DNA of 32,055 nucleotides, from positions 1-32,055 of the IMG/VR virus record IMGVR_UViG_3300044701_003663; one strand, written 5' to 3'. Origin of the DNA: a virus. The notes below the pieces were generated by a model. The model did no database searches, was not told where the DNA came from, and saw only the letters and a program-made list of their open reading frames with translations. Positions 1,731-9,185 of the stretch are shown here, piece by piece (position 1 is the first letter of the stretch; every line of letters begins with the position of its first letter). Both the position numbers and the translations under genes were made by a program.

Positions 1731-3317
1731 ATGGCAGCAAAACGCTTAGGTCTTGCTACTCCCAATGCAAACATAGCTACTCTGCTTGCTACCAACGACA
1801 CAGTTGGTGTTGCTTCTGTAATTGTTTCAAACAGAGCGAATATTCAGAGTCTTGTTACCATCTACGTTGAACCAGCCGAAGCCTTGGGTGTGGAGGCAAC
1901 TCGCTCCTACATTGTTGACAATTTGGCTGTTTCTGTGGGTCAATCCTTTGAGACATTCAGATTTGCTTTAAATGTTGGAGACCAGCTTTGGGTTAAGTCC
2001 AGCACATCTCTTGCTAATTTTTCTGCAACTCTTGTTTATGACCAAGCTGGTAGAGCAAATATAACTTATTCTTCAAATCAACCGGGATTCCCTTCTGTAG
2101 GAGATATTTGGATTGATTCTGACACTCAAGAAGTTAATTTTTATACAGGCTCAGGATTTAACACTGTAGCAAGTATTGCTCCTTCAGGACCTACAGGTCC
2201 TGCAGGTCCATTTGGTCCGACAGGTCCATCAGGACCAACTGGTCCCCAAGGGTCTAGCGTTCGTATTCTTGGAACATACGCAACTCTTAATCTTCTTCAA
2301 GCTGATAACCCAATTGGTGCAATTGGTGATGCTTATGTCGTTGCTTCAGAATTTGTTTATGCATGGTCAGACCTTAACCAAGAATGGGCGCTTGTTGGTC
2401 CAATTGGTGTAACTGGTCCAGCTGGACCTACAGGTTCTACAGGACCGCAGGGTATTGGTGGAGCAGATGGTGCTACAGGTGCTACTGGTCCCGCTGGTGA
2501 ACCAGGAGGACCAACTGGTGCTGCTGGACCAACTGGTCCAACAGGTTCACTCGGACCAACTGGTCCAACTGGAGCAACTGGACCAACTGGTCCTACTGGT
2601 GCTATTGGTGAAACAGGAATAATTTCTAGTGCAGTTCCTCCAGCAGATTTATCAATTATTTGGGTAGATACAACTGTAGATTCAGCAATTCTTACCCACG
2701 CTAGCACTCATGCTGCTGGCGGTAGTGATGAGGTGACCCTATCTACAAGTCAAATTTCTGGGTTAAACACGAGACTTGGTGATTTAGATATTCTTTCTAG
2801 TGGAGAGGGCAGTATTGATAGAAAAGCTCCTCTTACTGGTGTTGCATATGGAGCATCAGGAAACCTTATTCTAACTTATCGCCGAGCAATTAAAACAGAG
2901 ACTATTACAAAACTCTCTATGGCTTGCGGTACTGCTGCTGGTGCAACCCCAACGCTAGTAAAATTTGGAGTCTATTCAGTAAATGACTCTACTGGAGATT
3001 TAACTTTGGTAGCGTCTACTGCAAACGACACATCAATTTTTTCAACCGCTAACAGCGCTTTTGAAGTTAACTTAACTTCATCATTTACCAAGACAGCTGG
3101 TAATTTGTATGCATATGCAGTTGTACTGGTAAGCACACAAACGCTTCCTACAGTTATTGGTCACGCACATGTTGCATCTGCTGGTGTTAACGCAATTTTG
3201 GCCTTGCCTCCAAGAATTACAGGTTTAGTTGCGGCTCAAACAGATTTACCAAGCTCTATTTCTGCAGGTTCTGTAACAGCTTCTAACCGTGCACTGTGGA
3301 CGCACGCCCTACCTTAA
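1731..3317 (+). CDS. Collagen-like tail fibre protein
   Basis: The 528-residue product has an N-terminal beta-type region (residues 1-150), a short collagen-like Gly-X-Y block (about 153-174), a globular insert starting at [12 protein letters not shown], a longer Gly-X-Y block (about 223-296, rich in GPT and GAT triplets), and a C-terminal region of about 230 residues. The linker [16 protein letters not shown] after the collagen block is a motif seen in many phage fibre proteins. Gly-X-Y blocks form trimeric rods, so this is probably an extended fibre with a C-terminal binding head. The ATG follows AAGGAG at the right distance. The fibre role is well supported by composition and context; the receptor and place on the virion are unknown. 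Confidence 0.8.
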
Positions 3318-5047: not shown

Positions 5048-6124
5048 ATGAAAGTAGCTATATACACAATCGCATTAAATGAACGACAGTTTGTTGATAA
5101 ATGGTATGAAGCTTCAAAAGAAGCTGATTACTTGTTAATAGCCGATACAGGCTCCACAGACGGCACCATTGAGCGTGCAAAAGAGCTTGGAATTAATGTA
5201 GTCGATGTTCGAGTATCCCCTTGGCGTTTTGATGACGCTAGAAACGCAGCGATGGCAGCTTTACCAATCGATATCGATATGTGTATCTCCCTTGATATGG
5301 ATGAAGTAATTACTCCTAACTGGCGTCCATTGCTTGAAGCTGCATGGCAACGTGGAGTAACACGTCCTCGCTATAAGCATATTTGGTCTTGGAATGATGA
5401 TGGGACTCCAGGTTTGGAGTTTAGCTATGACCACATTCATACTCGTAAAAATTATCGTTGGCGTCACCCAGTGCATGAGTGTTTATATGTATACGGACGC
5501 GAGGAAGTACAAGAGTGGATTGAAGGTTTAGAGACTCACCACCACCCAGACCCAACAAAGTCGCGCTCTCAGTATCTACCGTTGTTAGCTCTTTCTGTTC
5601 AAGAAGATCCATACAACGACCGCAATGCGTTCTACTATGGTCGAGAACTTTATTTTTATGGTCGCTACCAAGAAGCAGCAGTGGAGCTAAAGCGACATCT
5701 TGAACTCCCAACAGCCCGATGGGCACCAGAGCGTGCTGCATCAATGCGCTTTATTGGTAAGAGTCTTCCTGCAGAAGCAGAGATTTGGTTTCGTAAAGCT
5801 ATCGAGCAAGCTCCAGGACGACGTGAACCTTTTGTTGATTTAGCAGAGTTGTACTATCAACGTAAAGATTGGCAGAAGTGTTATGAAGCTGCTAAAGATG
5901 CTATTGCCATTGCTGAGAAACCTTTAGAGTACTTGTGCGAAGCAAAAGCATGGGGAGCAGCCCCACACGATTTTGCTGCAATTTCTGCTTACTATTTAGG
6001 TAAGTTTGAAGAAGCAGTGGAGCATGCAAAGAACGCTTTTAGCATCGAGCCAGATAATGAAAGACTTGCAGAAAATCTTAAATTTTGTCTTAGCGCTGTA
6101 AATCCAGAAGAAAAGAGTGTCTAG
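5048..6124 (+). CDS. Family 2 glycosyltransferase with C-terminal TPR-like repeats
   Basis: The N-terminal third of this 358-residue protein is a GT-A fold of family GT2: MKVAIYTIALNERQFV, then ADTGSTDGTIERA at residues 32-44, and the metal-binding DXD as LDMDE at 82-86. WRHPVHECL follows later in the catalytic domain. From about residue 190 the sequence changes to helical pairs such as YGRYQEAAVELKRHLE, FRKAIEQAP and LGKFEEAVEHAKNAF, which look like TPR units. Glycosyltransferases with TPR tails occur in actinobacterial phages. The ATG follows TAGGATG, and the stop overlaps the halogenase start by one base. Possible targets are the fibre proteins encoded upstream or a host surface glycan; neither can be read from the sequence. 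Confidence 0.85.
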   Translation: MKVAIYTIALNERQFVDKWYEASKEADYLLIADTGSTDGTIERAKELGINVVDVRVSPWRFDDARNAAMAALPIDIDMCISLDMDEVITPNWRPLLEAAWQRGVTRPRYKHIWSWNDDGTPGLEFSYDHIHTRKNYRWRHPVHECLYVYGREEVQEWIEGLETHHHPDPTKSRSQYLPLLALSVQEDPYNDRNAFYYGRELYFYGRYQEAAVELKRHLELPTARWAPERAASMRFIGKSLPAEAEIWFRKAIEQAPGRREPFVDLAELYYQRKDWQKCYEAAKDAIAIAEKPLEYLCEAKAWGAAPHDFAAISAYYLGKFEEAVEHAKNAFSIEPDNERLAENLKFCLSAVNPEEKSV

Positions 6125-7632
6125 TGAAATTTGTAGTCTGTGGTGGTGGAACAGCTGGATGGCTTACCGCTTTAACCATTCACTCTAGTAATCCAAAGTT
6201 TCATGAAGTAGTGGTTATAGAATCACAAAAAATAGGAATTATTGGAGCTGGAGAGGCTACAAGCGGTTTTCTCTACGATGTATTAGATGGCTCTACTTTA
6301 TTTGGAAATAATCAAACAATGAACCCAAACAAAGTTGCTTTTGATTTTGCAGAGTTTGCTAAGAAAGTCGATGCTGTACCTAAGTACGCACTTAAGCACA
6401 TTAACTGGGCTAAAGACAAAGGCTCTTATTGGGCACCAATTAACGGCTCAGAAACTTCTAAGCGCTCTCCTGACCATCTATTTAATTATGTTGTAACAGA
6501 GTTTGGTCCTGAAAAAGCTTATCTATCTTCTGTATTAGGGCAGTCTTATGATCTAAATAAACTTCCGCCAGCGGGTGGAGGTTACGGGTTTCAGTTTGAT
6601 GCTCATAAAGTAGCTAAGTTTTTACGAGAGTATATAACTACAACCACAAAAACTACTCATATAGATTCAATTATCAAGGATGTTACTGTTACTAGCGATG
6701 GTCTAGTTGAAAGCGTGATTATCGAAGATGGTCAAGTCATTGAAGGAGATTTTTTCATTGACGCTACTGGATTTGTTAGATTGTTGGCAAACAAAGTTGG
6801 GATTGGGTGGACAGACTACAAAAACCAACTTCTTGTAGATAGAGCTATGCCTTTTATAGTTCCATACAAAGAAGAAGAAAAAGTACAACCTGTAACAGTT
6901 GCAGAAGCTCTTTCTTCTGGTTGGATGTGGCGAACTCCTACAGGAGGCCGCCGAGGTTGTGGGTATGTCTACAGCAGTGCGTTTATTTCTGAGGATGAAG
7001 CTCAAAAAGAAGCTGAAAAAATTATGGGGCACCCTATTGAGCCAATTAAGCATATTAAATATGAATCAGGCCGAGTGGACCAATTTTGGAAAGGCAATGT
7101 TTTAGTAGTTGGCCTTGCAAGCTCTTTCATTGAACCTTTAGAGGCAACCAGTATTCATGCAACTATTATGCAAATTTTTAGTTTCTGTCAAGAGTATCTT
7201 TCAGATACAAAAGAGAAAACTTTAAACCCTGCTTCAATACAAAAATACAACGCTAAAACTGAAAAAATGTATGAGTATTATAAAGACTTCACAGTGTTCC
7301 ACTATCAAGGTGGAAGAGAAGATTCCGAGTTTTGGAAAACTATTAAGTTCGACAAGATTACCTCTCCTGCTGTAGAAAACTACATCGAGAGGTCAAAGAG
7401 TAGAATTCCTAGTGCTCTGCATTTTATGGATTTTTGGGGTGTAGATTCTCTATGGAAGTGGACCTTAGCTGGTCTTGGATATGTTTCAAGAGAGCAAGCA
7501 ATGAGTGAGTTAAAACAATTTGATCAATTTGAATTTGCTCAAGCTCAATACAGAGCATTTAGAGAAGACATGAGAAAAATTCATGAAAATAGTAGACCTT
7601 TTGAGATGAGTCCCAAAGATTTTATTATTTAA
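6124..7632 (+). CDS. Flavin-dependent halogenase (tryptophan halogenase family)
   Basis: The 502-residue product matches the tryptophan halogenase family along its length. The FAD-binding motif GGGTAGW is at residues 7-13. YALKHINW places Lys91 where the family has its catalytic lysine. GWMWRTP at 266-272 corresponds to the family WxWxIP signature with Thr replacing Ile. SSFIEPLEATSIH holds Glu337 near the expected active-site glutamate. Such enzymes use reduced FAD, oxygen and halide to halogenate an aromatic or other activated carbon; a partner flavin reductase is needed and none is seen in this window. The start is GTG 6124, sharing its G with the TAG of the glycosyltransferase gene. A marine viral halogenase (VirX1 of a cyanophage) is an established precedent. 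The substrate here is unknown. Confidence 0.88.
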   Translation: MKFVVCGGGTAGWLTALTIHSSNPKFHEVVVIESQKIGIIGAGEATSGFLYDVLDGSTLFGNNQTMNPNKVAFDFAEFAKKVDAVPKYALKHINWAKDKGSYWAPINGSETSKRSPDHLFNYVVTEFGPEKAYLSSVLGQSYDLNKLPPAGGGYGFQFDAHKVAKFLREYITTTTKTTHIDSIIKDVTVTSDGLVESVIIEDGQVIEGDFFIDATGFVRLLANKVGIGWTDYKNQLLVDRAMPFIVPYKEEEKVQPVTVAEALSSGWMWRTPTGGRRGCGYVYSSAFISEDEAQKEAEKIMGHPIEPIKHIKYESGRVDQFWKGNVLVVGLASSFIEPLEATSIHATIMQIFSFCQEYLSDTKEKTLNPASIQKYNAKTEKMYEYYKDFTVFHYQGGREDSEFWKTIKFDKITSPAVENYIERSKSRIPSALHFMDFWGVDSLWKWTLAGLGYVSREQAMSELKQFDQFEFAQAQYRAFREDMRKIHENSRPFEMSPKDFII

Positions 7633-8173
7633 GTTGTTGCTTCTTAAGTTTTTTAGCTAAACGCTTTTTCTCTAGCTTTAGAGCTTTCTTCTCTCGAATG
7701 CGTGCTCTTTTTTCTGATTTGTCTATACGATCTTGTTTATAGGCTTCAATAGCATTTACGCTAGTTCGACTGCGCCAAGAAAAGCCACATACCGTACATG
7801 TGACTATCTTGGCGACAGTCCACCTACCACCACCAGGAATTTCCTGAGAACTTGTTTCTAGCTTTGAAGGACGAGCTGAGCAATAAGGACAGTGCGGGTA
7901 TCTACGGCGTTTTATCTCTTCGCCCTTGTAAGAGACAGAAAGTGCTCGACGTATCTCGCTCTCGTCTTTGCCACCCCACGTACCCCAAATCTGTCGGTGC
8001 TCTAAAGCCCACTGCAAACACTGAGCCCGTACAGGGCATTCGTAGCAAAGGTTTTTTGCATCGTATTTTTGTTTAGGGTCTTTAGAAAAGAACCAGTCTT
8101 TAAAATGAGTATTTTGAGGCTGAGCGCAAAGGGCTTCAGACTGCCATTCTATGTTGTTAGCTGGTTTCCACAC
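7625..8173 (-). CDS. WhiB-family protein with C-terminal zinc-ribbon-like and lysine-rich extension
   Basis: The N-terminal 70 residues are a WhiB domain: Cys16 in LCAQ, then Cys43, Cys46 and Cys52 in CYECPVRAQC, and the GTWGG turn at 64-68. WhiB proteins bind a redox-sensitive [4Fe-4S] cluster and regulate transcription by contacting the main sigma factor. This 182-residue copy is about twice the usual phage WhiB length. The extra part has two CxxC pairs (Cys95/98 and Cys126/129), which could form a zinc ribbon, and a very basic Lys/Arg tail from about residue 145 that could bind nucleic acid. The only usable start is GTG 8173, because a TAA lies two codons upstream. No Shine-Dalgarno precedes it, but TATAGT sits 7 bases upstream, so a leaderless mRNA is likely. 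Confidence 0.85.
   Translation of the reverse strand: MWKPANNIEWQSEALCAQPQNTHFKDWFFSKDPKQKYDAKNLCYECPVRAQCLQWALEHRQIWGTWGGKDESEIRRALSVSYKGEEIKRRRYPHCPYCSARPSKLETSSQEIPGGGRWTVAKIVTCTVCGFSWRSRTSVNAIEAYKQDRIDKSEKRARIREKKALKLEKKRLAKKLKKQQLK
7629..7654 (+). terminator. Weak terminator-like hairpin at the convergent junction
   Basis: TTAAG (7629-7633) can pair with CTTAA (7643-7647) across a 9-base loop, followed by a run of T at 7649-7654. It lies where the halogenase operon meets the minus-strand WhiB gene and overlaps both coding ends. The 5-bp AT-rich stem is weak, so this may be no more than chance. Confidence 0.25.
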
Positions 8174-8906: not shown

Positions 8907-9185
8907 TTACGCTGTTTTCTTGTAGGGGAATGGCTTACGTTTGCTTTTTATATGCTTTCTGTCAGCAGGGCTTAAACCGCCCCACAAACCAAACTCTTCG
9001 TTTTCTAAACCCCACAAGGCACATTCAACAAGATGTGCGCAACTATTACAGATTTTTCTAGCACCTTCGTAATTTATCTCTGGAGTCCCTGGCAAACTGG
9101 GCTCGTCTCTGTCTTCAGCAAAAAAGAAGTTCCCTCCTACCTGAGCACAAAGTGGGTCTTCATACTGCCAAGGAGGACGAATCAT
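8907..9185 (-). CDS. WhiB-family transcriptional regulator (compact)
   Basis: This 92-residue protein is a minimal WhiB domain: Cys13 in DPLCAQ, then Cys46, Cys49 and Cys55 in CNSCAHLVEC, and the GLWGG turn at 66-70, followed by a short basic tail (KSKRKPFPYKK). The four cysteines are expected to hold a [4Fe-4S] cluster. The length matches typical phage and host WhiB proteins. The region between the first and second cysteine is rather long, with FFFAEDRDEPSLPG. AGGGAT lies about 10 bases before the ATG. It is the second WhiB gene in under 1.6 kb and differs strongly from the first, so the two are unlikely to be a recent duplication. Whether it acts on host or phage promoters is unknown. Confidence 0.9.
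   Translation of the reverse strand: MIRPPWQYEDPLCAQVGGNFFFAEDRDEPSLPGTPEINYEGARKICNSCAHLVECALWGLENEEFGLWGGLSPADRKHIKSKRKPFPYKKTA

Follow-up and report, generated by a model that had tools for sequence, protein, structure and literature searches.

What does a phage halogenate, and on what would a halogenase encoded beside tail-fibre genes act? Halogenases have been noted in phages since the cyanomyovirus genomes, and to our knowledge the natural substrates of the phage enzymes have not been established. We examined this question in a viral stretch of 32,055 nucleotides (IMG/VR record IMGVR_UViG_3300044701_003663, positions 1 to 32,055; hereafter the window), in which a first reading of the letters, here called the original prediction, proposed a flavin-dependent halogenase (FDH) with an intact active site in the open reading frame (ORF) at 6124-7632. 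This ORF probably encodes a genuine phage halogenase, predicted from sequence and model to be active, and its membership of the halogenase class is very likely. The gene lies in a cassette with collagen-like tail-fibre, methyltransferase (MT) and glycosyltransferase (GT) genes, and our leading, if tentative, interpretation is that the halogenase is an optional tailoring step of a virion-decoration cassette, acting on an aromatic residue of a fibre or another virion polypeptide. Passages of an earlier paper suggest one role for a phage halogenase and call it speculative (PMC2984593).

The halogenase, its fold and its active site

The ORF starts with GTG and runs for 502 codons without an internal stop, and its first base is the last base of the upstream GT ORF. 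A Pfam profile search matched it to PF04820 (Trp_halogenase) with E 2.6e-83 and 280.8 bits against a cut-off of 21, residues 2-458 aligning with positions 1-449 of the 458 in the profile, and the PHROG search gave phrog_2928, "tryptophan halogenase", with E 1e-90. All 30 matches in a PDB sequence search were tryptophan-type halogenases by name or known name; RebH, Thal, LooH and PyrH stood at the top and VirX1 was 28th (E 9e-37). The AlphaFold2 model, built on 31 aligned relatives, had a mean predicted local distance difference test score (pLDDT) of 90.6, and its best Foldseek match had E 1.3e-37. The overlay on PrnA, RebH and VirX1, proposed with the original prediction as a check, supported the halogenase fold: VIA Z was 34-40 against SttH, PyrH, PrnA, RebH and VirX1 (SttH 39.7, PyrH 39.5, PrnA 38.2, VirX1 34.2). 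MibH (5uao), titled a lanthipeptide Trp halogenase, has the same fold (VIA Z 36.3) at 24% identity; no lanthipeptide gene was noticed in the cassette, where no dedicated search was made. The window enzyme has the full-length fold, the catalytic Lys and Glu and the flavin adenine dinucleotide (FAD) loop in common with PyrH, PrnA, RebH and SttH, but these are free-tryptophan halogenases, 25-28% identical to it, and we saw no biosynthetic cluster at the window gene. VirX1 of cyanophage Syn10 (PDB 6qgm) shares the viral FDH fold (471 residues, root-mean-square deviation (rmsd) 3.4) but is only 23% identical and lies further away in fold than PyrH or PrnA; the window halogenase stands in a fibre/GT/MT cassette.

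The original prediction placed the catalytic pair at Lys91 and Glu337, and here it had to be corrected. In the profile alignment to PyrH, Lys75 of PyrH aligned with Lys87 (codon 6382-6384), the first Lys in PKYALKHINW. The second Glu of the EPLE segment of RebH (chain residue 377, which we take to be Glu357 after subtraction of a tag presumably 20 residues long) aligned with Glu340 (codon 7141-7143), not with Glu337. By alignment, the catalytic Lys (K75 of PyrH) and the catalytic Glu (E357 of RebH, E346 of PrnA) thus appear at Lys87 and Glu340, and the claim that the enzyme keeps a halogenase-type Lys/Glu pair stands with these numbers. We also compared the representatives of 181 clusters at 70% identity, drawn from 304 halogenases over 380 amino acids (aa). 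Residue 87 was Lys in 88/89 viral, 86/86 bacterial and 6/6 phage-record representatives, whereas residue 91 was Lys in only 33/89, 8/86 and 2/6, respectively. Among the residues listed for the 89 viral representatives, position 91 held K 33, L 13, R 10, M 9, N 6, E 5, H 4 and I 3, and it was His in locus L014, a member of the window's own halogenase family. Residue 340 was Glu in 78/89 viral, 86/86 bacterial and 4/6 phage-record representatives, the remaining viral ones having Gln (10) or Thr (1). According to passages of PMC8407142, the Lys-to-Ala change abolishes the activity of RebH, PrnA and Rdc2, and the Glu-to-Gln change lowers the rate of PrnA by two orders of magnitude and leaves MalA inactive. 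Lys87 and Glu340 are the corrected residues to mutate.

A separate observation concerns the viral genes in which Gln replaces the catalytic Glu, namely those at L023, L205, L207, L213, L253, L255, L259, L263, L266, L267 and L279. Ten of them are among the 89 viral cluster representatives and one is the gene of cyanophage Syn1, with 0/86 among the bacterial representatives. These enzymes are possibly inactive or possibly altered in chemistry, and since some viral branches have lost the catalytic Glu, some of the phage genes annotated as "tryptophan halogenase" may encode an inactive protein. The wider retrieval patterns for IMG/VR and GTDB include FxEPLE, so that loss of this Glu is probably under-counted.

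The other motifs of the original prediction were found in the sequence. The FAD loop GxGxxG reads GGGTAG at residues 7-12 (GGGTAGW, 7-13), and the segments GWMWRTP and IEPLEATS begin at residues 266 and 336. At the WxWxIP site the sequence is WMWRTP (residues 267-272), with Thr for Ile; variants of WxWxIP are allowed according to part of PMC8407142.

The halogenase is under purifying selection. The ratio of nonsynonymous to synonymous substitution rates (dN/dS) was 0.067 against the relative L004 (dS 0.22) and 0.064 against L007 (dS 0.96), and it was 0.055-0.070 against L008, L010 and L011, where dS is near saturation (1.9-2.1). Five pairs among other halogenase relatives gave 0.038-0.100, and more distant pairs were saturated.

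The gene cassette and its relatives

The ORFs of the cassette overlap or lie 50 bases or less apart (Table 1), and both the GT and the MT gene are directly upstream of the halogenase, in agreement with the operon originally proposed. A WhiB-like gene forms the right border, and a second one was seen near it at 8907-9185.

Table 1. Cassette features in the window, in order of position (lengths in aa)
Feature	Position	Strand	Evidence
Subtilase (S8 peptidase), 530 aa	88..1680	+	PF00082, E 1.4e-31
Collagen-like tail fibre, 528 aa, GPT-rich	1731..3317	+	PF01391, E 4e-11; phrog_819 tail protein, E 2.7e-28
Short collagen-like tail protein, 153 aa	3337..3798	+	PF01391 below cut-off; PHROG tail and structural families
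Carbohydrate-binding/spike-fibre-like protein, 221 aa	3765..4430	+	PF02018, E 1.5e-9; NF048003 phage spike fibre domain, E 3.4e-8, just under its cut-off
Methyltransf_24 methyltransferase, 191 aa	4463..5038	+	PF13578, E 9.5e-13
Glycosyltransferase, GT2 and C-terminal TPR, 358 aa, SunS/ThuS-like	5048..6124	+	Pfam, PHROG, profiles, model
Flavin-dependent halogenase, 502 aa	6124..7632	+	PF04820, phrog_2928, alignments, model
WhiB-like regulator, right cassette border	7625..8173	-	PF02467, E 3.6e-17

A search with the window halogenase gave 21 IMG/VR loci, and in 20 of them the halogenase lay directly downstream of the GT (in L012 by match position); the 21st begins inside the gene. A search with the GT family gave at least 584 relatives, of which the best 80 were kept, and with L007 and L040 this made 82 loci; such sets hold the best 80 per search and are redundant. 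We called a locus GT-HAL when a halogenase lay within three ORFs of the GT. There were 25 GT-HAL loci, 2 loci with the halogenase on the other side (HAL-GT; DSL-LC01 and L084), 34 WhiB-flanked loci without a halogenase, 20 other contexts without a halogenase and 1 unknown; when identical GTs were removed, the numbers became 20, 2, 27, 16 and 1. The MT was present in 24 and a collagen-like ORF in 21 of the 25 GT-HAL loci, and the corresponding counts for the 34 halogenase-free WhiB-flanked loci, many of which are cut upstream, were 24 and 15. No halogenase was detected anywhere on the contig in 32 of the records behind these 34 loci, although the contigs may be fragments; this search had no positive within the run, and a separate Pfam search of positives found 10/10. 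Because WhiB-flanked GT loci keep fibre, MT and GT without the halogenase, we conclude that these three are the core of the cassette and that the halogenase is an optional accessory. The lineage is in effect a natural experiment, as the same conserved cassette with its peptide-type GT exists in near relatives both with a halogenase and without one.

Some branches of the GT tree are long; on this tree the GT-HAL state requires 6 changes, at least 2 of them falling on well-supported branches. A quick tree of 122 halogenases (93/95 viral and phage-record clusters, 29/86 bacterial clusters), the phylogeny suggested with the original prediction, put the window gene among 45 viral rows that group together (branch support 89, not starred). 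The halogenases of GT-HAL loci formed one starred group with one other viral gene, from L031, inside it, whereas both HAL-GT halogenases sat elsewhere, weakly grouped with each other and with the other halogenase of L031; that of DSL-LC01 was a long branch of weakly supported placement. Because the halogenases of the two arrangements lie in different clades, the cassette seems to have taken up halogenases twice, once on either side of the GT, the second state being seen in two loci only. This repeated placement beside the GT is the best argument that the position is meaningful.

The case of Actinomycetia phage DSL-LC01 (OQ999401) is informative, as the same neighbour genes are visible in its record. 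It shares a freshwater source and a predicted Actinomycetia host, according to passages of its description (PMC10611076). The gene order is collagen, hypothetical protein, halogenase, GT and WhiB, and the GT is 62% identical to that of the window, but the halogenase is 26% identical, lies on the other side of the GT and in another clade, and has Asp at the catalytic Glu. The enzyme family is therefore known, including in an actinophage, and what is new is the cassette setting of the halogenase; in the open-licence PMC literature we found no paper that links a phage halogenase to fibre decoration.

Two other arrangements were observed. On L031 (6101-9506), a 129.6-kb virus contig, two halogenases of different clades lie in near tandem with one small ORF between them, and one of the two groups with the window gene. 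L272 (3-3529) has a third order, in which a halogenase fragment is followed by two ORFs, the GT and a 191-aa ORF, and then by genes on the opposite strand.

Among loci that extend 4.5 kb or more upstream of the GT, a subtilase relative was present in 18/18 GT-HAL loci vs 3/14 halogenase-free ones (13/14 vs 3/10 after dereplication, one HAL-GT locus being counted as positive). The association had no significance on the tree, where it came to 2 supported and 5 possible independent pairs, and we kept it as a lead; the subtilase could be a maturation protease.

Ten large relatives were inspected for further halogenases. In the three longest (110.9, 136.0 and 160.7 kb) a second PF04820 gene lies 56-60 kb from the first (L280:8319-9953, L281:8054-9619 and L282:8552-10120); in six of the other seven this place is off the contig, and in L004 it is within ~1 kb of the contig end. 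The window is too short to reach it. The second halogenase is ~28-30% identical to the window enzyme and, as judged by eye, keeps the Lys and the EPLE segment; its neighbours are M23 peptidases, acetyltransferase-like genes and a polysaccharide pyruvyl transferase gene.

Candidate substrates of the halogenase

The partner genes bear on the substrate. The GT model (pLDDT 91.7) found its best structure matches, by both Foldseek and VIA, in SunS and ThuS, which are titled glycosin S-glycosyltransferases. Its VIA Z was 21.8 over 258 residues (rmsd 2.6) against the shortened SunS 7msp, and 21.2 and 21.0 over the whole chains of 7msk (rmsd 7.2) and 7msn (rmsd 8.4). Like these peptide S-glycosyltransferases, the window GT is predicted by its model to consist of a GT2 domain followed by a helical TPR-type domain, but it is 13-16% identical to them and its proposed target is the collagen-like fibre. 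Besides TPR-repeat proteins, the family profile matched GmaR (E 8.6e-8), which we take to be a flagellin glycosyltransferase, and SunS (E 2.7e-5). No sublancin-like or other precursor peptide was noticed among the cassette ORFs, no search aimed at short ORFs having been made, and family searches with Pfam, PHROG and NCBIfam found no scaffold-making enzyme in the cassette.

Collagen-like ORFs accompany this GT. They were present in 18/18 GT-HAL loci, 11/14 halogenase-free WhiB-flanked loci and 6/12 other contexts with at least 4.5 kb upstream. In the G-X-Y triplets of the GT-linked collagens Y was Thr in 60% of 1368, whereas in six unlinked loci Y was Ser in 49% and Thr in 14% of 525. Thr-rich collagen repeats with O-glycosylation are known from BclA of Bacillus spores. 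The GT may glycosylate the collagen-like fibre. A general link between viral halogenases and collagens was considered and rejected, as only 6/84 other viral halogenase loci (6/64 of the loci of at least 8 kb) hold a collagen-like ORF.

Because the GT model is closest to SunS/ThuS and the collagen repeats so often have Thr at Y, we favour polypeptide decoration over a small-molecule pathway. The tailoring pathway of the original prediction may be right as such, and the SunS/ThuS-like GT and the lack of a scaffold-making enzyme in the family searches shift it towards a polypeptide. That the substrate of the halogenase is a polypeptide or fibre is possible, at somewhat less than an even chance.

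Since flavin halogenases attack electron-rich aromatic rings, an enzyme in such a setting would be expected to act on Trp or Tyr in a protein of the virion, much as MibH is said to act on a lanthipeptide. A host reductase would supply reduced FAD, and the FAD hydroperoxide would oxidise a halide, probably chloride, to hypohalous acid (HOX), which would travel through the tunnel to Lys87, where Lys87 and Glu340 would direct X+ onto the electron-rich ring. In the cassette, the SunS-like GT would glycosylate Thr of the collagen-like fibre, the MT would methylate that glycan or the protein, and the halogenase would halogenate a Trp or Tyr, either in the fibre or in a different polypeptide of the virion, a decoration that may alter the host-contact surface of the phage. 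The analysis establishes the gene, its predicted fold, its catalytic residues, the purifying selection and the cassette with its optional halogenase; in the scheme given here we infer the activity, the halide, the supply of reduced FAD, what the partner genes do and, most of all, the substrate. If the halogenase does act on fibres, it would represent virus-surface chemistry of a new kind, and the substrate question for phage halogenases becomes a mass-spectrometry question on virions. The wider scenario, in which freshwater actinophages make halogenated and glycosylated collagen-like fibres, have recruited two halogenase lineages and expose surface halogenation to selection in an arms race with the host, we regard as rather unlikely.

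Several results weigh against decoration of the fibre by the halogenase. Many relatives keep the GT, and on long-enough contigs mostly the MT and the fibre too, without a halogenase, which indicates that the fibre does not need it. No column of the fibre separated halogenase-positive (17) from halogenase-negative (11) phages, and no column of the MT separated 20 positive from 18 negative ones, when a column had to have one residue in 90% or more of the positives and in no more than 20% of the negatives. The second halogenase is not near a collagen-like gene. In 37/95 other viral halogenase loci, 2-oxoglutarate (2OG)-Fe(II) oxygenase genes lie within 5 kb (two protein clusters, each named by one representative, with 35 and 31 of the 95 loci and 37 combined); because other viral halogenases are often near such genes and seldom near collagens, the fibre link is special to the window's lineage. 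As for the GT, the window GT domain alone matched weakly (GmaR E 0.0032, SunS E 0.48), the rmsd of 7-8 over whole chains of SunS/ThuS means that the domain angle differs, and the next-best structure was WrtF (VIA Z ~18), titled a fucosyltransferase with oligosaccharide acceptors. In the halogenase itself the WxWxIP site reads WMWRTP, and the tunnel motif Fx.Px.Sx.G is matched only in part, FIEPLEATS having Ala for Ser and Ser for Gly; passages of PMC8407142 state that this motif or a variant form is present in all active FDHs, and FIEPLEATS is not named there among the allowed variants.

The strongest alternative, which we still consider somewhat unlikely, is an auxiliary metabolic gene whose enzyme acts during infection on a small aromatic metabolite of the host, such as free Trp or indole; it would lie next to the fibre genes only because these phages gain genes in that island. 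VirX1, BrvH and similar enzymes take small aromatics, as described in parts of PMC8407142 and PMC8269204, the tail fibre/collagen-like region is a hypervariable island in Nanopelagicales phages, as described in part of PMC10202952, and the halogenase is optional in the cassette, all of which would fit. The Trp-binding motif of PyrH, given as YYHGFETYS in a passage of PMC8269204, is, however, not kept in the window halogenase, where the aligned place reads FWGVDSLW (alignments read by eye, PyrH-type motif), and two halogenase clades occupy the place beside the SunS-like GT; both points count against this reading.

It is improbable that the GT, the MT and the halogenase together modify a component of the host envelope, for example to block superinfection. 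The alignment of the GT domain with the glycan-acting WrtF and then with the teichoic-acid enzymes TarS and TarP (VIA Z ~16), and the M23 peptidase and polysaccharide pyruvyl transferase genes near the second halogenase, point in that direction, but SunS and ThuS score higher (Z 21-22), the cassette starts with tail genes, and envelope glycans mostly are without the electron-rich aromatic that flavin halogenases need.

Still less probable is a flavin monooxygenase that, like QhpG, oxidises (hydroxylates) a polypeptide Trp, the subtilase then being the maturation protease. The halogenase matched the NCBIfam families of QhpG (5.2e-5) and GoxB (0.0042) and the S8 peptidase that of QhpE (0.0013), which presumably belong to a system of protein-Trp oxidation and cleavage, and the subtilase goes with the halogenase in the counts given above. 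All three matches are far below cut-off, however, and QhpG and GoxB are not the best NCBIfam families there (geranylgeranyl reductase family, 2.5e-6); Lys87, Glu340 and the WxW block are typical of halogenases, tryptophan halogenases gave the closest matches in both sequence and structure, and the subtilase association reduces to the 2 supported independent pairs, or 5 if the best tree is taken. It is very improbable that the gene is a decaying or inactive relative retained for something other than catalysis, for although the catalytic Glu is lost in other viral branches and is Asp in DSL-LC01, the window gene keeps both catalytic residues at a dN/dS of about 0.06.

Flavin supply, host and occurrence of viral halogenases

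The virion-decoration reading requires reduced FAD, and the original prediction noted that no flavin reductase is encoded nearby. This holds for PF01613, of which there was none in the window and none in the records of ten relatives (0/10), with control genomes positive in 13/14; other reductase families were not searched. Because no PF01613 reductase was found in these records, reduced FAD probably comes from the host.

That host is probably an actinobacterium, as originally proposed, because the window has two WhiB genes, a mark of actinophages, and its Sak4-like gene has DSL-LC01 as the nearest named relative (84%), followed by Microbacterium phages (66-68%). The G+C content of the window is 38-49% per kb, a low value that would fit freshwater Nanopelagicales. 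WhiB and GT genes and a variable island with collagen-like genes are described for Nanopelagicales phages in part of PMC10202952.

We did not find a recent bacterial donor of the halogenase. A GTDB scan with a tight family alignment gave 0 confirmed bacterial relatives, the best 80 of 580 relatives in a wider scan showed no more than 34% identity in their best segments, and the window gene lies in a viral group. No DNA-level match of the window to the phage records was found.

Viral halogenases, described as rare in the original prediction, proved not to be so. A family scan of IMG/VR confirmed at least 588 relatives, of which the best 80 were kept, and 67 records of the phage collection had a halogenase match; 56 of these 67 are named Synechococcus phage, Cyanophage or Prochlorococcus phage, and the others include Campylobacter phages (4) and Pelagibacter phages (2). 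Part of PMC10452541 tabulates 20/153 cyanophages with a halogenase. Nor is VirX1 the sole precedent, since ORF137 of DSL-LC01, a phage with WhiB genes, was described in 2023 as a tryptophan 7-halogenase homologue (passages of PMC10611076).

Many viral loci hold more than one halogenase ORF. Among 115 virus-side loci, a redundant set that includes the window's own locus and four phage-record loci, 25 had two, 11 had three and 10 had four. L025 (MT837902, a human faecal phage record marked unverified, which may not be a phage) has two halogenase-like ORFs in 6 kb, one with Arg for the catalytic Lys. Viral contigs with multiple paralogues are L032, L034, L036, L209, L235 and L236; carbamoyltransferase genes were seen in L032 and L034, an FkbM-type methyltransferase in L034 and 2OG-Fe(II) oxygenases in L036.

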